Shown piece by piece: positions 2,978 through 63,461 of a stretch of 64,000 nt of DNA. A program made the position numbers and the translations under genes. The notes under the pieces were generated by a model. The model was not told the origin of the DNA, ran no database searches, and worked only from the letters and a program-made list of their open reading frames with translations. Source of the DNA: Schizochytrium sp. TIO01 (taxonomy: Eukaryota; Sar; Bigyra; Thraustochytrida; Thraustochytriidae); NCBI GenBank assembly GCA_004764695.1, contig SMSO01000035.1, positions 246,001 to 310,000 on the forward strand. Direction: 5' to 3'. Numbering within the stretch: position 1 is the first letter of the stretch; each line of letters starts with the position of its first letter.

Positions 2978-3105
2978 GGAAGGTATCGACAGCAGGCATA
3001 CCAACCTCAACAACCATTGCGTACAAATTTCTCAAGCTCAAGCATAAGCATAAGCACAAGTACAAGCCCGACTTCGAACAAGCACCTCTGGTCAAATAAA
3101 CAATC

Positions 3106-4266
3106 ATGGCAACGCCTGCGGCAACGATGCCGCACGCTCGGCGAGTAAAGCCCACGACCCCGCGGACAAGCAGCAGCGGCAGCGCCGTCTCCACCTCGGA
3201 GAGGTTAAAAACCCTTCTTACGGGAGAGCATGATGATGTCAACCATGTCATCATTGTTCACGTTCAGCACAAGCTAGATGATGGTTCGCTCGTGGATGAA
3301 ATCGTTCTTGGTGGCGGGTCTCCTGCCGCCAACAATGGTGGCGGCAGCACACAAACTCGCTCGGGCCCTGTGCGCCGTTTGAGCAGCCCTTACCGTGGTG
3401 TTTCGTTCCATTCCTGCACTCAACGCTGGCGTGGACGCATCAAGCACGGCACCAAAAGTGAGCATCTCGGATACTTCACATCTGACCTCGAGGCAGCAGC
3501 AGCGTACAACGTGGCTGCCCGTAAAATCCACGGTCAAGACGCCCAGGTCAACCGAAATGTTGAAGAGATCATGGCCCAGACTTTGGCATGCTCCAGCCGC
3601 GTCATTGAACGCAATGCAGTACCTTATGCCAACCGGGTGGCTTCAGGAGCCGCGCCTCAACCGCCTGCTCACAAGGCTGTTGTTCAACCAGCGCAGCCTC
3701 AACAACGCGAAACTGCACCAAGCTATGTAAAAATAGAACCTCACACTTCTCACGCTCCAATGGCGCCTCCACCTGTATATCCAATGAGCTCCATTAGTAG
3801 TGAGTCCCGTGAGTCCATGTATTCATACGAGGATTACAGCGACTGCTATCCCAGCCCGCACAGCGCTCAGCCGCAGCACGAGCAGGGCGAGTACTCCAGT
3901 AATTCTTCACATCACATCAACTCCTCCTTTCATGTGTCACCTAGCGTAGAAAAGGTCCACGAGAACAGCAGTGTCATGATCACCAATAACGATGACTTGC
4001 ACTACCACACGATCAAGGAGGAGCCTTCCGCACAAGCCACCACCTCCCTCTCTTGGGAGGATTATTTCGTGCAAATCTGGTTTGACGGGTCATCAACCGG
4101 ATGCCACGACACCCCAACACAAGTTGCGCCATCAAGCGCGTCTGAGAGTCTTCCTTTCGGGCCGTCGAGCTTGGACCTCGATGGTAACCGATGCTTCAAG
4201 CGTGCTGCTTATGACTACAGTCATCAGCCCGCTGTGGACTTTGACTGCAAGCGCATTCGCTGTTAG
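3106..4266 (+). CDS. AP2/ERF-domain transcription factor, single AP2 domain
   Basis: A 386-residue protein starting at an ATG in the context CAATCATGGC. Residues about 95-150 form one AP2/ERF DNA-binding domain: the YRGV start, the paired tryptophan/arginine strand (QRWRGRIK), the LGYF turn, and the AAAAYNVAARKIHG helix followed by a closing Asn. In the known family the three-stranded sheet reads a GC-rich site in the major groove, so this is probably a nuclear sequence-specific regulator. The rest is low complexity: a Ser/Thr-rich N-terminus, a Gly/Asn stretch before the domain, and a long Pro/Ser/His/Gln-rich C-terminal half with a possible acidic/aromatic activation patch (SWEDYFVQIWFDG). 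AP2 proteins outside plants occur in apicomplexans and stramenopiles, among others. Target genes cannot be told from the sequence. Confidence 0.93.
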   Translation: MATPAATMPHARRVKPTTPRTSSSGSAVSTSERLKTLLTGEHDDVNHVIIVHVQHKLDDGSLVDEIVLGGGSPAANNGGGSTQTRSGPVRRLSSPYRGVSFHSCTQRWRGRIKHGTKSEHLGYFTSDLEAAAAYNVAARKIHGQDAQVNRNVEEIMAQTLACSSRVIERNAVPYANRVASGAAPQPPAHKAVVQPAQPQQRETAPSYVKIEPHTSHAPMAPPPVYPMSSISSESRESMYSYEDYSDCYPSPHSAQPQHEQGEYSSNSSHHINSSFHVSPSVEKVHENSSVMITNNDDLHYHTIKEEPSAQATTSLSWEDYFVQIWFDGSSTGCHDTPTQVAPSSASESLPFGPSSLDLDGNRCFKRAAYDYSHQPAVDFDCKRIRC

Positions 4267-40025: not shown

Positions 40026-42788
40026 TTAGGGAACAGTCACCGGTGTACTTCCTTGACGCTCCATCTTCTTGATGTTACCCAGAACCTGGTTGTACTGTTT
40101 CACAAGCCAGCGCTCCTTGTTCCTTGCAGCAAAGACAAGGTAATCCTCAAAGCCAATTTTGCCATCGCGGTCTGCATCAACATACTCAAGACAGAGATCA
40201 GCTTCTGACCGAGGAACAGCATAGCCATCCTCCGCAGACCACTGAACAAGGTCCTCGCGAGTGATAAAACCCTTGTCGCTGTGATCAATTACCAAAAACA
40301 GGAGCTGCAAAGATACCAACTCGTTCGCCGAAAATGAAATGGAGTTTTCGTTGGCACTTTTCTTCTTGTTTTTTTGTCTGCGACTCTTCTTCGCAGGGGA
40401 CTTCTTACGAATAAGACTCTCATGACCATTACCTTCCTTCACACGAATTTGTTCGGGAAGATGTAAAGTGTCCGGGTCCAATTTAACTTGTGCCTGCTTC
40501 ATCTTATCTTGCACTACAAGAGGATTGAGCTCGTTAATTCCATCTTGCTGAGCGGCCTCTTCGAACTTTTTGTTCTTCTTCTTCTTCTTTTTGGGAGAAG
40601 GAGGAGGCTTGCTGTAAGGACCAGCAGCTTGCACGCCACCAGGATCGTCAAAACCAAGCAATGCTGCGGCCTTCCAGTTTTTACGAGGTGATGAGGGAGG
40701 CTTATTGTCTTCATTATCAGACTCTTGATGATCACTGACTTTACGGGGAGGGAGCGGCGGTGGCAAATCGGACATAGCTTTCTCCTTTCTAATTTCACGC
40801 GCATCCTTCAGCGAAGAGCGCATTGCTTCGCGATTAATACTACGCCTAGCCTCCTCTTCGCCAAATTCAATCGCACGCGTGATGAAGGCATGGAATGTGG
40901 TCGGCATATACGGGCAGGTTGTCTCAAGGCGCACAGTTTGTTTCTGCTGTTCGTTCTCTACGAAGCGAGGATCTGGGTGAGGCACTGCAGTGTATTGGAT
41001 GGGCTCGACCAATTGCATGGGACGAACATTTGACTTGCGACCAAAACGACGTCCGGGTACCTTGTGATGCATGCGCATGATTGCTGCCTTGTTACCATAA
41101 CGACCTGTGTAGTTGGGCGCAGAGAAGACAGTAATCACAGGAGGTGTAACCTGGCCTGGATTATTACTGTTCGCACCCTGGAGATCCACGTAGTGATAGA
41201 AGTAGCCTTCTTCCTGAACCTCGTGAGCACGGATGAGTCCTACTAGACCATTGACAGCTAGGAAAGACACAACTGCACGGAAACCATACCGGTACGAGCA
41301 TCCACGCTGCGGATTTGGCAGAAAGTCAATAGAAAGAAAGTCTGCCATGCTTGTGATAACACCATCCTCATGAGTATCCTTGACCGGATCAGCCCAAAGA
41401 ATGTCACACAGAAATCCGTTCATGGCAGGCTCGGCAAAACGATCAAATTCGATGAACTGATCGAGGGTCTGTACATTCGGAGATATACCGCCATGCAAGC
41501 ATAGCCATTTACCAGCAGGGGTCTCCACAGTAGCTGCGATGGGCAGAGCCTGGAACATTTCAGCAAAACGATTGAAGACAGCTAGACCATACTTACGCTC
41601 GCATTCTTCCTTGAAACCAAAGTAAGAAGAAACCGTACGGGCCTCGTGGTTACCACGAACGAGCCAAACGTGGGCTGGGAACTTAATTTTAAGTGCCAGC
41701 AAATACAGCATTACCTCGCAGCTCCAATCGCCACGATCGACAAAGTCTCCAAGGAAGAGAAACGTGGTTTTGCCCTTACCCTTACCAGGCTGACCTGCCA
41801 TCTTGAACATTTGTCTCATGTCATAATATTGGCCATGGATGTCACCGACAATGGTAATGCTTGTGGAAGTTGCTGTTGTAAGTTGGATCAGGTTCGGTTC
41901 CTCGCGTAGCATGTTGTCCGCACGCTTGATAATACTCAGTGCCTCTTCGGAGGAGAGAATCTCCTGCTCCTCGAATCGGCGGCCCAAATCTTCTGGGTCA
42001 AGCTTGTTTGGGTTGATTACAGCCTGCTTCGCCTTCCATTGCTCACGGAAGGCGCCAATGTTAGCCTTGGAAACCGTGAGACGGGTTTTCTCCTCGCGAT
42101 CCGTTTCCTCGAAGCGCTGCTTTGCATACAAATATCCCCTATCCAAGGAGCGACGACGTTGCATCTTCTTTGCCTCCCGAGCCCCATCTGCCACAGGATC
42201 GGGCTCAGAGTGCTCATCCGAGGTGGTCCGATTAAGTGCAGTGGGTAACATCATACTCCGAGGACGCGCGCGTACATCCCCAGCAACAGAGGCGGCAGAA
42301 GAACCGGCGCCATACTGGTGAGGAACATCACCCGAGGCTTGCAAGAATGCTTGCAATTTATTACGCGGGGGAGCTTCGGGCTTTTTCTTGTCCTCCTGCT
42401 TTTTAGCCGCATCACGCTTCGCTTTCTCCTGCGGGGCGAGGCCGCCGCTTTCCTCAGCATTGTCGGGAGGCAAATAGCTGTCATCTGTCTCGTAGCCGTC
42501 TTCCTCCTCTTCGCCAAGGTCGGGAACGGTGTTCATGTCAAATTCCTTTACACCCTTGAAGACAAGCTTTTTCTCAGCAAACAATGCTTGGCCTACTTCA
42601 ACTCGGTCGGGAGCGCCAGCTTCTTGCAATTCATGGTCCAGATCCATAAGCCATTCAATGGCATCATCCGCAGAAGGGCGCATGAGGCCGCATGGGTGAA
42701 ATACACTGAGCACACAGCTCAATAAGGGAGCCAGGAACATCAGTTCCTGCAGCGAAGAGAAGACCACGAACCTCAGCATCAACCCCAT
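40026..42788 (-). CDS. PP2B/calcineurin-type phosphatase with C-terminal EF-hands (3' part of a fusion gene)
   Basis: An ATG-started frame of 920 residues. The PPP Ser/Thr phosphatase domain runs from about residue 285 to 600, with GDIHG at 315-319, GDFVDRG, RGNHE at 378-382 and CLHGG. It resembles calcineurin A in NPQRGCSYRYGF, the LIRAHEVQEEGY segment and the SAPNYTGRYGNKAAI end. A Lys- and Pro-rich linker (PPPLPPRK and a KKKKKK run) leads to two canonical EF-hand loops at 835-846 (DHSDKGFITRED) and 871-882 (DADRDGKIGFED). So the catalytic and Ca2+-sensing parts that calcineurin keeps in two subunits lie in one chain. The first 35 residues look like a shadow of the kinase frame; real sequence resumes at RPSADDAIEWLMDLDHEL, which is the last helix of a kinase fold. 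The protein most likely begins at 43971. PPEF-type phosphatases are the known phosphatase/EF-hand relatives. Confidence 0.9.
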   Translation of the reverse strand: MGLMLRFVVFSSLQELMFLAPLLSCVLSVFHPCGLMRPSADDAIEWLMDLDHELQEAGAPDRVEVGQALFAEKKLVFKGVKEFDMNTVPDLGEEEEDGYETDDSYLPPDNAEESGGLAPQEKAKRDAAKKQEDKKKPEAPPRNKLQAFLQASGDVPHQYGAGSSAASVAGDVRARPRSMMLPTALNRTTSDEHSEPDPVADGAREAKKMQRRRSLDRGYLYAKQRFEETDREEKTRLTVSKANIGAFREQWKAKQAVINPNKLDPEDLGRRFEEQEILSSEEALSIIKRADNMLREEPNLIQLTTATSTSITIVGDIHGQYYDMRQMFKMAGQPGKGKGKTTFLFLGDFVDRGDWSCEVMLYLLALKIKFPAHVWLVRGNHEARTVSSYFGFKEECERKYGLAVFNRFAEMFQALPIAATVETPAGKWLCLHGGISPNVQTLDQFIEFDRFAEPAMNGFLCDILWADPVKDTHEDGVITSMADFLSIDFLPNPQRGCSYRYGFRAVVSFLAVNGLVGLIRAHEVQEEGYFYHYVDLQGANSNNPGQVTPPVITVFSAPNYTGRYGNKAAIMRMHHKVPGRRFGRKSNVRPMQLVEPIQYTAVPHPDPRFVENEQQKQTVRLETTCPYMPTTFHAFITRAIEFGEEEARRSINREAMRSSLKDAREIRKEKAMSDLPPPLPPRKVSDHQESDNEDNKPPSSPRKNWKAAALLGFDDPGGVQAAGPYSKPPPSPKKKKKKNKKFEEAAQQDGINELNPLVVQDKMKQAQVKLDPDTLHLPEQIRVKEGNGHESLIRKKSPAKKSRRQKNKKKSANENSISFSANELVSLQLLFLVIDHSDKGFITREDLVQWSAEDGYAVPRSEADLCLEYVDADRDGKIGFEDYLVFAARNKERWLVKQYNQVLGNIKKMERQGSTPVTVP

Positions 42789-43971
42789 CTGCTAACTCAT
42801 CAAGCTTTTCATATCGGCCCTTTTCCTCAAGCTTCACAGCGGACTTGAGCTTTGGACAAGAGATCTGAGCGAATGTCTTTCCAAGAATGAGTTCCATAAT
42901 GACGATACCAAGGCCAAGAATGTCCAACTGTTCAAGTCCCTTGCGTTGATCGCTGCGAAATTCAGCCTTGTTCAAAGTGCGGATTGTCTTAATCACCTTA
43001 ACATGGACACCGAGGCGCTGACTCAGAAGGAAACTATCTGAGCGCACCGTGCCATGGATATAGCCACCTTGATGAAATTTACCGATACGTTTCGCCACTT
43101 CGAGCAGGATTTCAACACGGTTAGCGTATGCTATGTTAAGCTTTTGCTCCTGAACAATCAGGTCTGTCAAATTACAAAACGTCTTGATGGGCACACCGTT
43201 CTCGTCCTGGTTAGGGATCTCATAAAATCCTTTCAGTTTGCGGCGTTTTTGTGTCTCAATGAGCATTGACCTGCGATTCCAGAAGCTCGGAGCTGTACTG
43301 GGCGGGGACTTTTTGTTCAGCTGCTCTAAAACATAAAGCTTGCGAGCAATCTCTTCAGTAGTCCCGCCTTTGCTCAACACATCAAAAACAGCCTCCTTTT
43401 GAGCACTGGCGTCAGCCCATCCGCTCGGATTTGAAAACTCAAAGTCGCTCTCGTCCTCATCACCATTCTGAAAAACTTTACGTCCATACATGGTTTCGAA
43501 TGAGGTTTGGCTTAAACCAGTGAAATCTGAGTCTACAGAGTCTTCCTCATCAAGAAAGTCTTTTTCGTCATCATCGGATGAAGACGATGATGAAAAGACA
43601 GAACCTGGGTTGGTACCGCGGCCACTTTTAGTTGTGCTGCGCTTGTCACTTTTGCTTGATCTTGTTGAGCGAATGCTCAGTTTGGCTTTGAGAGATATAC
43701 GGCTTTTGCTCTTTGATTTTGACGTTGAGCGAGAGGTGGATTTGGCCGTAGACCTAGCTGAACCAGGACCCTTTTTAGAGCTTCGTCTAGCCAGGTCGTC
43801 CTCAAAGGCCTCCCAGCCAGCTTCGATGCTGTCATCCTCAGCATTTGACTGGCGCCCATTGAATAAGTCGTCATAACTGACAAAGGAACTTTGTGATTGA
43901 TCCTCGCCAATATTCACATCTGCGTAAGGATCTGCTTTTGTTGAGGTCCTCGACCGATTGAGACGTCTCAT
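42664..43971 (-). CDS. Pseudokinase domain, 5' part of the kinase-phosphatase fusion gene
   Basis: A 435-residue frame with an ATG at 43969-43971. The first 200 residues are acidic and Ser/Lys-rich, with SR-like runs. From about residue 240 a kinase-like fold follows: a helix like subdomain VIa (ILLEVAKRIGKFHQGGYIHG), then H306-G-T-V-R-S-D-S where active kinases have HRDLKxxN, no DFG at the expected place, and a good subdomain IX (QLDILGLGIVIMELILGK). With the catalytic Asp, Lys, Asn and DFG missing, this is a pseudokinase. It runs into the final lobe (LIELCAQCISPMRPHA) and then hits TGA at 42664-42666. The expected RPS motif and last helix continue in the other frame, which is the phosphatase frame. 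A two-base gain in the GCGC run (42676-42681) would restore one chain of about 1,310 residues. Confidence 0.75.
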   Translation of the reverse strand: MRRLNRSRTSTKADPYADVNIGEDQSQSSFVSYDDLFNGRQSNAEDDSIEAGWEAFEDDLARRSSKKGPGSARSTAKSTSRSTSKSKSKSRISLKAKLSIRSTRSSKSDKRSTTKSGRGTNPGSVFSSSSSSDDDEKDFLDEEDSVDSDFTGLSQTSFETMYGRKVFQNGDEDESDFEFSNPSGWADASAQKEAVFDVLSKGGTTEEIARKLYVLEQLNKKSPPSTAPSFWNRRSMLIETQKRRKLKGFYEIPNQDENGVPIKTFCNLTDLIVQEQKLNIAYANRVEILLEVAKRIGKFHQGGYIHGTVRSDSFLLSQRLGVHVKVIKTIRTLNKAEFRSDQRKGLEQLDILGLGIVIMELILGKTFAQISCPKLKSAVKLEEKGRYEKLDELADGVDAEVRGLLFAAGTDVPGSLIELCAQCISPMRPHAPFCG

Positions 43972-45737: not shown

Positions 45738-47037
45738 TTAAATTTTGTCATCAATGTCCCGCACAGGTGAGACTACCACAAAGGAGTCCCCTGGTGGGAG
45801 GCGAGCGCTGGACCTGTCAAAGCTGTGCATCCGAGTCTGAAAATCATCAGCGCTACTGGAGTTCCCTTGGCTACTGTGGTCTTTGGTCATGTAAGCATTC
45901 CAAAAGTCAAGGGACATGCTTTGGTCTCCATCTGTAGGTCCCAGACACAATGAGCCAAAACCTACCAAGCAAAGGAAGATTGAAATTGACCCGGTGCTAA
46001 TCATAGCAATGGCTACTGGACGACACGAGGTAAGAATCCAAGCATACATCACAAACTGAAAGGCGCTGATTTTGCCTCCGCCACAGCCAAAGGTAGGTTC
46101 AGATGCGTCACCAACAATAGGGATCTTTGTTGTTGGCTCTGTTAGCTGTTCAATAGAAAAGCTCCCAATACTCAAGCCACTAATATCCACCACAGTAGAG
46201 TTAATTGTCCCACATATGAAGTCAGTGACCGCAAGATCGAACCATTGAACATGTCCGTAGCTACCGACACAAGTATCCAGCAGCTTTTCCATTGTTGAAA
46301 GCTTGTTATAATACGCAGCTGTATAAAATGTTTCGCAGGTTTCCAAGTTGTCCCAACTGAATTGTAAATCGTGCATGTAATAATCATTTAATCAAAGCCA
46401 GTTGCCAAAGTTAGTTTTCGAAATGCACAAGACATATATATTAACCAAACAGATACACAACATACCGTTCATCATCAATAGCAATGCCAAGTCTGGTTAT
46501 GGCTGCATCTGAGTGGACAAGACCAGCAACACGACAACATTGGTCGTACATGGCAACTGAAAAGTCTAGCAACTGGCGTGTTGTGCTATTTTCAAAGTCG
46601 CTAGTATCTGTGACAGTAGAGTCTAAGCCTGAGATCGTGGAAAGGATGATAGCGCCTCCCGCAACATTTGAAACTGCTCCAAGCAGCACAAGACCAAGAC
46701 AAAAGGTCATGAGACGCTTAATGTTGAAGACAGTTACTAGGTACAGGATCGTGCATAAAACAAAGCTCAAACACCCAGCTACATATGAAACCTCAACTAA
46801 TTTCTTGAATTGGTTTTCTTGAATATCCATTACGTGCACCACATAGCCTGCGAAGGTGCTGAAGTCATCCTCTTTCAGTTTATGCGCAAAGAATACAATC
46901 AATGCGTTGGCAGCTCCAATGGCTATACTGCTAAATAGCAAGAGAAGACTCAAGCGATGGGGCTGCGCATTCTCTAGGCTCTTGATCTCGCTACGTATGC
47001 TCCTCTGAATGCTATGAGGTCGAGTCTCCTCGCTCAT
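45738..47037 (-). CDS. Tetraspanin-like four-span membrane protein, two exons
   Basis: Exon 1 is 46466-47037 and exon 2 is 45738-46356. The 109-base intron (46357-46465) has a GTATGT donor and a TTTACAATTCAG acceptor; splicing joins DDE to RWDNLETC through a split CGT codon. The product is about 396 residues. Four hydrophobic segments are visible: LSLLLLFSSIAIGAANALIV, then VAGCLSFVLCTILYLVTV, then FCLGLVLLGAVSNVAGGAII, and, after a large loop of about 180 residues, AIAMISTGSISIFLCLVGFG. The large loop contains a CC pair (DQCCRVA) and further Cys, and the spacing of TM1-3 fits the tetraspanin plan, but the CCG motif is not exact. The likely place is the plasma membrane or endosome. The start is the ATG at 47035-47037; an upstream exon cannot be excluded. 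Confidence 0.6.
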
Positions 47038-47796
47038 GGGTCTGTCAATTGAAGGACGATTGAATGAGTTCCCAGCTCTTGAGCGATCAGCACATTTAGA
47101 AGGTTCGGAACCTGCCAGGCCAAAGAAGAATGACAAAGCAAATAGGGCCTAGCTTAAGAAAAAAGGCTGTCCGAAAGAACGTTGTAGTGCAGCTGCAGCG
47201 TTCTCATCAGGTTTTGCAGTAGCACCGGACCTGAAAACTAAATCTACCAGTCCACGGATCGTCAACAGGGTTACAGATGATTACTTCTGTTTCTGTTTTA
47301 AAAGTTTAAAAGTTTTATTTTTTAAAGCAGGGGGTAAGTACAATGCAACAAGCTCGTTTCTGCATTTCTGTCTTCAATCCATTTGTTGTTTGCGACTCAA
47401 TTTCAAGACGTTTGTTTAAAGGTCGAAGTTTGGGTCTTGATAAAAGGTTTGTGTTCCGTGCAAAGTTGATTTTTACTTTTGTTTTAGCATAACTCCATGA
47501 GTATGCAGGATTAAGCCTAACGAAAAGGCAAAATTTATTTTGTCGCTTAGGGTTGCCCTTTCTCAATTCAAGTACCTACCTTCTTGCTAAAATAGGACAA
47601 GGCAGCTTCGGCACGTAGTGATTAAATGGCAGGTTCTTTAGCCAGCACGATGTTACCTTTGACTTGAATAGCACAGTATTTAGACTATAGAGTCACATCT
47701 AAATTATGACTTTAAAGTCTAAGTATACACTCACATTAGAGGATATTATCAACATTTTTGCTTTTGAGTTACTGGAGTATTTGTTGTCTTAAAGGT
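47038..47796. other. Intergenic region upstream of the tetraspanin-like gene
   Basis: It contains the promoter of the tetraspanin-like gene and the 3' end of the HEAT-protein gene, both on the minus strand. The open frame of the tetraspanin gene runs upstream to 47136 without another ATG. No repeat or other gene is visible. Confidence 0.5.
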
Positions 47797-60324: not shown

Positions 60325-60956
60325 TGAATATGTCTATAGCCATTTTGATTATTTTTGGAGAGGTCAATGTCGCGGGCACCAATAACTCAGGTATAAACTG
60401 TTATGGATAGACTCTGCTCTAGCCTTGAAATACCCTGAAAAGCGATGGAAATAGAAAAGGCACGGAAATGAAATGAAATGAAATAGTAGGTACCAGGTAG
60501 TATCTAGGTAGGACGTTATTTATAACAAAGGACAAAATACAAATTCCGTTCGCACGGCCTGGAGCGCTTTCTTTTACAAACCGAGTTTATTGTATGCAAA
60601 CGCTATTTTAAGGATGCACTCCTCCCTGCAAGATGCTCGTGATAGGATTGAGTCCTCGTTTCTGCTGTATGTAGGTACCTAGTAGATTATGGCCGTGAAA
60701 GTGTAAATTTGGGTCACTTTATACCCACCTATCGAACTATCTGAAGTCAGTGGAGTTCTTGATTCGTTCGTTCGTTCAATCCCGATCTTTTATTTGTTTT
60801 GCGGTACAAAGCCATGGCAATGCGCAAATCATCAAGGTAGCAGCCAAGCTTTGAGGTTGCGCAATCCACACCTCGACCTGGCGTCGATATTTCGACTGGG
60901 CTGGGCGAAGGCCTACTTGTTTTGCGTTGTTTGGGAGGCGAGCAGCTTGATTCCTG

Positions 60957-63461
60957 ATGGCAAGGAACATGGGGCTTGCAGTACTTCTGCAGCTCGTGGT
61001 GTTGCTCATAGTAGCAACTGGTGGCTTCAGTGCTGTTGCGGAGCAGACTTCATCAATCTGTAGTGGACCTCGTTTTCCGAATGATATTGTTCGTGAGAAC
61101 TGTCTTCAAGGATCACCTTCCTCCGAATGGGATGTTAACGGTGCCGGTGATGTAGAAATCCAAGGTTTTGCTGTCCCGTTCGGCGTCTCTCCTGGTGGTA
61201 CAGTGTATTTCAAGGTCAAGAGTGTTTCCGACAAGTATAGAGTAGATATCTACAGACTTGGTTATTATAAAGGTCTCGGAGCTCGACTTGTGGGCAGCGT
61301 TCGACCGCATGTTAACCTTCCCCAAGAACAGCCGGAATGCTTCAGAGACAACAACACGCACATGTACGATTGTGGCACATGGCACGTCAGTGCCCGCTGG
61401 GACGTCCCAGCCAATGTCACATCTGGCATGTATGTGGGCCGCCTGACGCGGGAAGACGACTTGCCTCCAAACCCAGTTGGAGCAGGCTGGCGCACTGATT
61501 ACTCTCAGGAGGGCCTTGACATAATGTTTGCTCGCCCTCGTGCCGATCTGGAGCCTGATGATCCATCTGAGCTGAAGAGTAGTTATGGCCAGCAGAAACG
61601 TGCTCGAGGCGAGAAGAATCTTCACACGGCTCTACGCGAGCCTCGCGCAAGTCATATTTACTTTGTGGTAAGGAACTTGGACTCCAAAGCTGAGGTCTTG
61701 TTCCAAACCTCAGATACTACTTGGCAAGCTTACAATCGCTACGGTGGTACTTCGTTATACGGATCCTACAGGGAGGGGTTCCCAAAGCCACGCACCTATG
61801 TTGCAAGCTACAATAGACCATTTGAAAACCGCGCTTATCGCGCTGTTAACCTTGTCTTTGCCAATGAATATCCCGCAATTCGCTTCTTCGAAAGGAATGG
61901 TTTTGACCTGGCATACATGTCAGGTCTAGACGTTCACCGATTCGGAGAGAAAATCACGCAGCACAAAGTTTACCTTTCTGTTGGCCACGACGAGTATTGG
62001 TCTCTTCAGCAGCGGCGCCATGTTGAGGCCGCACGAGATGCTGGAGTGCATATGATGTTTCTAAGCGGCAATGAGGCATTTTGGGGAATCCGCTGGGAAA
62101 GCACTCCGACCTATACGTCAGGAAAAGCAAGCGTGGAATTGCGGAACGAAATGGACAATATTGCACTTGAGGAACCTAGGTCTATGGTGTGTTACAAGGA
62201 GACTCAGGATATTCAAAAGATTGATCCACATCCAACATTGTGGACGGGAACCTTCCGCGATTCTCGCCCAATTAATCCGCAAGGAAGTCTGCCAGAGAAT
62301 TCTTTGACTGGCCAGATATTTACAGTAAATGCTTGGCGGAATGATGTTCTTACAGTGCCTCGCCGATTTGCGCGTCTTCCAATTTGGTCTAACGCACACG
62401 CAGTGACAAAGCTCTTGGATGAACCACCTTTGCGCCTTGCTTCGGACTACACCTACCTAGGAACCCAACCTGTGATCGGTCGCGGATGGGTAGAGCCTTG
62501 GTCTATCCTTAAACAGGGTCTTTTAGGTCACGAGTGGGATGAAGATCTGGACAATGGCTATCGTCCTTCAGGAATGATTCGAATGAGTGAGACTCATGCG
62601 GACAATGTTCAGTATATTCAGGATTCAGGCGCAACTTATGACACTGGTTCTGCAACACATCGGCTTACATTTTATCGAGCAGGGTTCTCACAGCAGCGAG
62701 AGCAACAGCCGTCGAACGGAAAAGAAAACGAGTGTGATTCAATTAGCGGTTCTGAGTTCAATAACTCTTCTGCCATTGTTTTCGGTGCTGGAACGGTACA
62801 ATGGACTTGGGGTTTAGACCCAATGCGTGATGATGAGAGCGCGCTAATCTCGCAGGTTCAGAACTCCTATGACACTCGAGTAGGGCTCGATCTTGCTGGT
62901 CCTGACCGGGCAGTTCAACAAGCAACCATTAATATTTTCAGCCTCATGGGTGTTCAACCAGCTACGATGGAAAATGGCTTAATGCCAGGGCCAGCCCAGC
63001 CGAAACTTACGGACGAGTGGCTCACTGGCGTGAGTTGCGAGGTCACCGAATTTGCACCAAGTAGTCCAACCACAAGAGGAATTGTGGAAACACCTGGTCA
63101 AGGCCGGGTCGTACGAGTTCGTGTGAATGCGCCGATGGGGATCCTCATTGCAGGAGTTGAAGTTCGAGGTTTTGAAGATGATGATTCAAGCTACGGAAGT
63201 GAGGAGAGCAATTTATCCAGTCCAGAAGACGATGTATCGTGGTGGCGGGCCGGAAGTCATGACTTGGCCTATTTTGCACAGTTAATGTCGACTGCGGACT
63301 TATCAACGATGATAGCGTTCGATTTGGACCCATCTTGGGGTCGCCGCTGGACCGTCGCATGGTTGGCCAAATCATCGCCCCGAAAATTTGCTTGCCGCGT
63401 AACTAACGAGCACCTGCAAACTTCGCCCGCCTTTTACACGTCTTTACCATCCCTGAGTTAA
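60957..63461 (+). CDS. Secreted N,N-dimethylformamidase-like protein
   Basis: An 834-residue protein beginning with a hydrophobic signal peptide (MGLAVLLQLVVLLIVATGGF from Met5). The rest matches the large-subunit fold of N,N-dimethylformamidase and its many uncharacterised relatives: a beta-sandwich start (VDIYRLGYYKGLGARLVG), the FQTSDTTWQAYNRYGGTSLY block near residue 245, AYMSGLDVHRFG, and VYLSVGHDEYW with H344-D-E346. In the bacterial amidase a His-x-Glu pair and a Tyr bind the catalytic iron; the pair is present here, the Tyr is not assigned. Late blocks include GTVQWTWGLD and a C-terminal Ser-rich extension of about 130 residues, absent from the short bacterial enzymes. The predicted place is outside the cell or in the secretory path; the substrate is unknown. 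An in-frame TGA at 60948-60950 fixes the start. Confidence 0.88.
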   Translation: MARNMGLAVLLQLVVLLIVATGGFSAVAEQTSSICSGPRFPNDIVRENCLQGSPSSEWDVNGAGDVEIQGFAVPFGVSPGGTVYFKVKSVSDKYRVDIYRLGYYKGLGARLVGSVRPHVNLPQEQPECFRDNNTHMYDCGTWHVSARWDVPANVTSGMYVGRLTREDDLPPNPVGAGWRTDYSQEGLDIMFARPRADLEPDDPSELKSSYGQQKRARGEKNLHTALREPRASHIYFVVRNLDSKAEVLFQTSDTTWQAYNRYGGTSLYGSYREGFPKPRTYVASYNRPFENRAYRAVNLVFANEYPAIRFFERNGFDLAYMSGLDVHRFGEKITQHKVYLSVGHDEYWSLQQRRHVEAARDAGVHMMFLSGNEAFWGIRWESTPTYTSGKASVELRNEMDNIALEEPRSMVCYKETQDIQKIDPHPTLWTGTFRDSRPINPQGSLPENSLTGQIFTVNAWRNDVLTVPRRFARLPIWSNAHAVTKLLDEPPLRLASDYTYLGTQPVIGRGWVEPWSILKQGLLGHEWDEDLDNGYRPSGMIRMSETHADNVQYIQDSGATYDTGSATHRLTFYRAGFSQQREQQPSNGKENECDSISGSEFNNSSAIVFGAGTVQWTWGLDPMRDDESALISQVQNSYDTRVGLDLAGPDRAVQQATINIFSLMGVQPATMENGLMPGPAQPKLTDEWLTGVSCEVTEFAPSSPTTRGIVETPGQGRVVRVRVNAPMGILIAGVEVRGFEDDDSSYGSEESNLSSPEDDVSWWRAGSHDLAYFAQLMSTADLSTMIAFDLDPSWGRRWTVAWLAKSSPRKFACRVTNEHLQTSPAFYTSLPSLS

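Follow-up and report, generated by a model that had tools for sequence, protein, structure and literature searches.

A predicted single-chain pseudokinase, PP2B-type phosphatase, and EF-hand protein of Schizochytrium sp. TIO01, encoded across a one-base frame break

Calcineurin, with its PP2B-type catalytic domain, is usually regarded as a heterodimer. Here, we describe a gene in a 64,000-nucleotide stretch of the thraustochytrid Schizochytrium sp. TIO01 (assembly GCA_004764695.1, contig SMSO01000035.1, positions 246,001–310,000; hereafter the window) that appears to combine, in one chain, a PP2B-type domain with a dead kinase-like domain and a pair of EF-hands. Pseudokinase–phosphatase fusions and EF-hand-bearing phosphatases of the PPP family are each already known.

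Proteins of Phytophthora infestans (PITG_08304 and PITG_09375) and of plants combine an inactive kinase, a protein phosphatase, and a cyclic-nucleotide-binding (cNMP) domain, and it was suggested that their kinase-like domain may bind substrates (PMC3019232). The window protein resembles them in that it would combine a dead kinase, a protein phosphatase, and a sensor for a second messenger, but their phosphatase is listed as PP2C and their sensor binds cyclic nucleotides; neither of these two domains was matched in the window protein (Pfam, E up to 10). The oomycete phosphatome includes five PPMs with kinase domains, for each of which a single transcript is stated (PMC10925823). The trypanosomatid kinatases are likewise pseudokinase–phosphatase fusions of protists, and proteins with both a kinase and a phosphatase are mentioned also for Giardia, Tetrahymena, and Dictyostelium (PMC2175518). 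Kinatases differ in having two pseudokinases, leucine-rich repeats, and a dual-specificity phosphatase; neither of the latter two was found over the Pfam cut-off in the window protein.

Among the PPPs known to carry EF-hands are PPEF/RdgC and several enzymes of the Bsu1 type, including one in the stramenopile Nannochloropsis (PMC8249667). Plasmodium falciparum PF14_0224 is another, and its full activity requires Ca2+ in its two EF-hands (PMC2559854). PPEF/RdgC and the window protein share a PPP catalytic domain followed by EF-hands in a single chain. However, the catalytic domain of the window protein is predicted to be of PP2B type, whereas PPEF belongs with PP5 (our tree; PMC8249667), and the separate PPEF-like gene of the host has a CAP-Gly domain and more EF-hands.

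A preliminary description of the locus remarked that the combination of pseudokinase, PP2B-like phosphatase, and EF-hands is not known as an established family. We did not find this combination in the literature searched, a scope that leaves out most subscription papers, although, as noted above, pseudokinase fusions with other phosphatase folds have been described. No relatives were found in viral contigs (both frames) or in genome contigs (kinase and junction reading); because these records are viral or prokaryotic, the searches say nothing about conservation among eukaryotes.

Locus and reading frames

The gene lies on the minus strand of the window at 43971–40026. The assembly splits it into two frames with a 128-base overlap. 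Frame A, which is kinase-like, starts with an ATG at 43971 and ends with a TGA at 42664, whereas frame B, with the phosphatase and EF-hands, is open between 42791 and its stop codon at 40026. The G+C content of the window is about 46%, and the host genome searched comprises 64.06 Mb in 37 contigs. With a probability of roughly 0.72, we read the locus as one gene for a protein of about 1314 residues with a disordered N terminus, a dead kinase, a PP2B-type metallophosphatase, a long tail, and an EF-hand pair, the frame break being most likely a sequence error. The features, in window coordinates, are as follows.

43405–43971, minus strand: N-terminal Ser/Lys/Asp-rich segment of frame A, residues 1–189, probably disordered (translation; disorder judged from composition)
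42639–43404, minus strand: predicted pseudokinase domain, starting in frame A and finishing, beyond the break, in the opening residues of frame B (profile matches; N-lobe boundary approximate)
43024–43077, minus strand: catalytic-loop equivalent FHQGGYIHGTVRSDSFLL, with HGT for HRD and Ser for the catalytic Asn (profile alignment)
42967–43002, minus strand: KTI, the equivalent of the DFG site, and the beginning of the activation segment, which is shortened (profile alignment)
42684–42718, minus strand: interval in which the coding switch from A to B falls, with a net surplus of one base (span of the 25 best switch points; kinase spacing)
42664–42666, minus strand: TGA stop codon of frame A (assembly)
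41955–42638, minus strand: linker, acidic and then Arg/Lys-rich (translation)
41052–41954, minus strand: predicted PP2B-type PPP domain with GDIHG, GDFVDRG, GNHE, LHGG, RAHE, and SAPNY motifs (Pfam, PDB matches, motifs, tree)
40824–40922, minus strand: segment faintly resembling the calcineurin-B-binding helix (72 of 2000 shuffles equally good)
40137–40310, minus strand: EF-hand pair, loops at 40286–40251 and 40178–40143 (Pfam, PDB match, loop inspection)

For codon usage, a log-odds model was derived from 12 long open stretches in the window; two of these are outer parts of the gene itself (40029–42400 and 42900–43971). By this measure, the coding signal is in frame A until about 42720 and in frame B once about 42690 is reached, and the 25 best points for a switch between the frames all fall within the 35 bases from 42718 to 42684. 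A single one-base shift in this interval yields a reading of 1314 residues with no stop from start to end, whereas the two frames do not form one open chain in the assembly as given. Codon usage, together with the kinase profile described below, supports the prediction that both frames encode one protein. The same had been claimed in the preliminary description; the codon switch, the open reading, and a kinase helix in frame B speak for that claim, and the one-base break in the assembly is the part that does not agree with it.

The kinase-like domain

To compare the two frames with kinases, a profile was built from 22 of the genome's own kinase domains (142 kinase matches, 30 of them retrieved, and eight of these removed by a filter on motifs and stops). 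Using hhalign, the joined reading matched this profile with a probability of 88.2% and a score of 46.8, aligned up to column 252 of 253, as compared with 54.9% and 35.5 for frame A alone. None of 100 readings with a shuffled frame-B tail reached the score of the joined reading (maximum 39.0); the maximum for 100 fully shuffled sequences was 24.9, and control queries (the reversed sequence, three shuffles, and the linker) gave probabilities of at most 0.5%. The match to the SymRK kinase in the PDB changed from 14.0 bits (E = 0.23) for frame A to 23.7 bits (E = 2.4e-4) for the joined query, which was additionally trimmed of its first 150 residues. Joining also restores a Cys-x7-Arg-Pro spacing that is present in 16 of the 22 kinases. 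The prediction that the last helix of the kinase C-lobe is supplied by the start of frame B, also made in the preliminary description, holds against the shuffled tails. With hmmsearch, the joined reading scored 12.9 bits against the same profile, and 200 shuffles, 110 of which gave any match, scored 0.7 at most. Judged by these comparisons, its kinase resemblance is beyond chance.

In the profile alignment, the HRD site reads HGT, the catalytic Asn is replaced by Ser, and the DFG site reads KTI. The activation segment shows a gap of 16 residues, and the alpha-F Asp is retained 22 residues after the DFG site. By eye, neither a Gly-rich loop nor a VAIK Lys was recognizable in the kinase-like domain. 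The alignment bears out the earlier observation that HRD, DFG, and the catalytic Asn are missing, and supports the prediction of a catalytically dead kinase. The pseudokinase MLKL shows a likeness in the catalytic loop only (HGN-ISSSSFLV aligned to HGTVRSDSFLL), but this match is weak (E = 0.039) and MLKL has no phosphatase. A search of the genome for paralogues of the kinase half gave two weak matches (E = 0.08 and 0.48) lying mostly or wholly before the kinase domain. Separately, one kinase match in the genome (G000:C13:877408-878292) lies inside an open frame with a reported length of 23480 residues.

The phosphatase domain and its class

The phosphatase domain matches PF00149 (E = 1.4e-34), and the catalytic motifs of a PP2B-type phosphatase are intact. 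Among the best 60 of 100 PDB matches, calcineurin A ranks first, with 251.2 bits for the best single-copy chain and 353.3 bits for a calcineurin A chain that was matched twice; below it follow FAP15, a PP5-type chain (174 bits), PP2A, and PP1, all at 168 to 175 bits. In a tree of 13 rows, containing PPPs of the genome and one calcineurin A, the window phosphatase pairs with calcineurin A (support 94/92) and the PPEF-like gene L013 pairs with the PP5 gene L012 (100/99). These results support assignment of the phosphatase to the PP2B type rather than the PPEF type, in line with the calcineurin-like domain of the preliminary description. Membership of the PPEF group was considered and is ruled out by the catalytic domain (174 bits for PP5-type versus 251 for PP2B, and the tree placement); the genome carries separate PPEF and PP5 genes. 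The PPEF-like gene itself (L013, G000:C30:3022500-3029000) has an N-terminal CAP-Gly domain, a PPP domain, and three EF-hand_7 stretches, and its CAP-Gly domain suggests microtubule targeting.

With calcineurin A, the window protein shares a PP2B catalytic domain with RGCSY, RAHE, and SAPNY...NKAA motifs and a DRF-EP...CDILW-DP stretch. Unlike in calcineurin A/B, the EF-hands lie in the same chain, a dead kinase stands in front, and there is no confirmed B-binding helix: the segment listed above was equalled by 72 of 2000 shuffles in a comparison with a sequence of that helix, and in a search at E up to 10, none of the best 60 of 86 matches was to the helix. A further difference is that no clear calcineurin B was found in the host genome: among 64 matches, the top one, with 36% identity and 107.6 bits, may belong to another EF-hand family. 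A calcineurin A query gave 16 matches in the genome; the window gene ranked second (45% identity) after L005 (49%), which groups in the tree with four other genes whose motifs we take to be PP2A-like.

The EF-hand pair

One EF-hand pair was detected (PF13499, 35.5 bits at a cut-off of 30), and its best PDB match is the sensor domain of CDPK3 (41.8 bits). In both loops, DHSDKGFITRED and DADRDGKIGFED, position 12 is Asp instead of Glu, and position 5 of the first loop is Lys. Asp at position 12 usually lowers the affinity for Ca2+ and favors Mg2+. The preliminary description had reported two canonical EF-hands; the pair is real, but "canonical" is too strong because of the Asp at position 12 of both loops and the Lys at position 5 of the first. 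In another part of the genome, at G000:C13 (~6758442-6767453), an open frame of 3267 residues has many consecutive EF-hand matches.

Origin of the frame break

The frame break is probably an assembly error, which is likelier than an intron or a programmed shift, because an equivalent break occurs in the pfaA gene of the same genome and because no candidate intron has a donor seen elsewhere. pfaA, whose presence speaks for a thraustochytrid host, encodes a PUFA (polyunsaturated fatty acid) synthase and is normally one long frame. Here (L026, G000:C4:607800-617500; match over the family cut-off), a one-base shift in the same direction as that of the window gene divides it into two frames that overlap, with the best switch points at about 3237-3245 of L026, which suggests that single-base assembly errors occur occasionally in this genome. 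Such breaks seem only occasional, since the cullin (769 residues), the ERG4/ERG24-like protein (489 residues), and other long frames are intact, the two named ones lying in the window. An origin in a tandem repeat was considered, an imperfect 10-base repeat being visible by eye at the junction (unscored), and was set aside, as a net change of a single base suits the kinase spacing better.

The alternative that fares best, although we consider it unlikely, is that the break is real and the locus a pseudogene or disabled allele, making only a shortened kinase half and, perhaps, a phosphatase half from a start of its own. The break is present in the assembly, the junction sequence occurs once in the genome, and frame B has upstream ATGs. 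Against this, the coding signal persists in both halves right beside the break, the phosphatase motifs are kept with no second break over 3.9 kb, and pfaA, which is expected to be needed, has the same defect.

That a spliceosomal intron connects the frames is less probable still. We counted GT-AG candidates of 18 to 399 bases that start downstream of about 43071, and 29 of them can join A to B with the frame-B helix kept. For one 25-base candidate, the 3' end is rich in pyrimidines and the resulting reading reaches an hhalign score of 40.9, above the best shuffled tail because that helix closes this reading too; the one-base reading has the higher score and matches the kinase spacing. None of the 29 starts with GTAAGT or GTATGT, the donors of two other genes (a PP1-like paralogue with an intron of about 390 bases and a probable intron near window position 46465), two introns being a small sample. 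Two adjacent genes, one for a kinase-like protein and one for a PP2B/EF-hand phosphatase with an independent start in frame B, are similarly improbable: a stop codon separates them in the assembly, but the final kinase helix is readable in frame B alone, and upstream of about 42700 this frame does not look coding. Least credible is programmed +1 ribosomal frameshifting giving the phosphatase from a minority of ribosomes, for although a forward one-base shift just ahead of the stop has the right geometry and pfaA requires a shift in the same sense, no motif common to both switch points was seen by eye (unscored), and ordinary assembly error accounts for both breaks.

Several results weigh against a single protein of the composition proposed above. 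With plain hmmsearch, the joined tail brought no gain (13.7 bits for frame A alone), and a profile of the 45 C-terminal kinase columns detected no reading above shuffles (-2.7 bits; shuffles up to 1.8). A Pfam search of both frames, put forward as a check in the preliminary description, returned Metallophos and EF-hand_7 as the only domains over cut-off in the gene; every kinase model stayed below its own, with E-values of 0.012 (Kdo) and 0.27 (PK_Tyr_Ser-Thr) in that search and of 0.0071 (Kdo), 0.11 (PK_Tyr_Ser-Thr), and 0.18 (Pkinase) for a trimmed reading. For the N-lobe, a weak Pfam match is the sole evidence. The pairing with calcineurin A is not starred in the tree and depends on one calcineurin row. 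Among the 16 genome matches, no canonical calcineurin A was apparent, an absence of limited weight since the search ran exon by exon. Finally, the Asp at position 12 of both EF loops argues against tight Ca2+ binding.

Proposed mechanism

If the locus is one gene with a sequence error, the phosphatase would be active, as its intact motifs suggest, and the EF-hand pair could act in cis as calcineurin B and calmodulin do in trans. Binding of Ca2+ or Mg2+ to the pair may alter the activity of the phosphatase or the position of the tail. The pseudokinase may dock substrates, or kinases due for dephosphorylation, by analogy with the suggestion made for the P. infestans proteins. A further idea, which we advance tentatively and regard as rather doubtful, is that the calcineurin heterodimer has collapsed into one chain in this lineage. 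The only PP2B-type catalytic domain of the genome would then carry its own EF-hand sensor and a docking pseudokinase, forming a self-contained phosphatase gated by Ca2+ with no need for calcineurin B or calmodulin.

A PP2B domain equipped with an EF-hand pair of its own, in a genome that also has a distinct PPEF-like gene, would represent an independent route to a phosphatase linked to Ca2+, and through the dead kinase, pseudokinase–phosphatase fusions would come to include the PPP fold. Single-base assembly errors can conceal such architectures from automatic annotation.

Other observations in the window

The minus strand carries, at 45741–47148, a gene that contains several hydrophobic stretches and by eye resembles tetraspanins; it is split by the probable intron with a GTATGT donor near 46465, and its first part has no Pfam match. 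On the plus strand, a weak match to an AP2 domain (E = 2.1e-5, under the curated cut-off) was found at 3100–4263. The plus-strand open frame at 60951–63458 strongly matches the N,N-dimethylformamidase beta subunit-like C-terminal domain (E = 4.8e-82), a family that we take to be associated with bacteria, and lateral transfer of this frame is possible.

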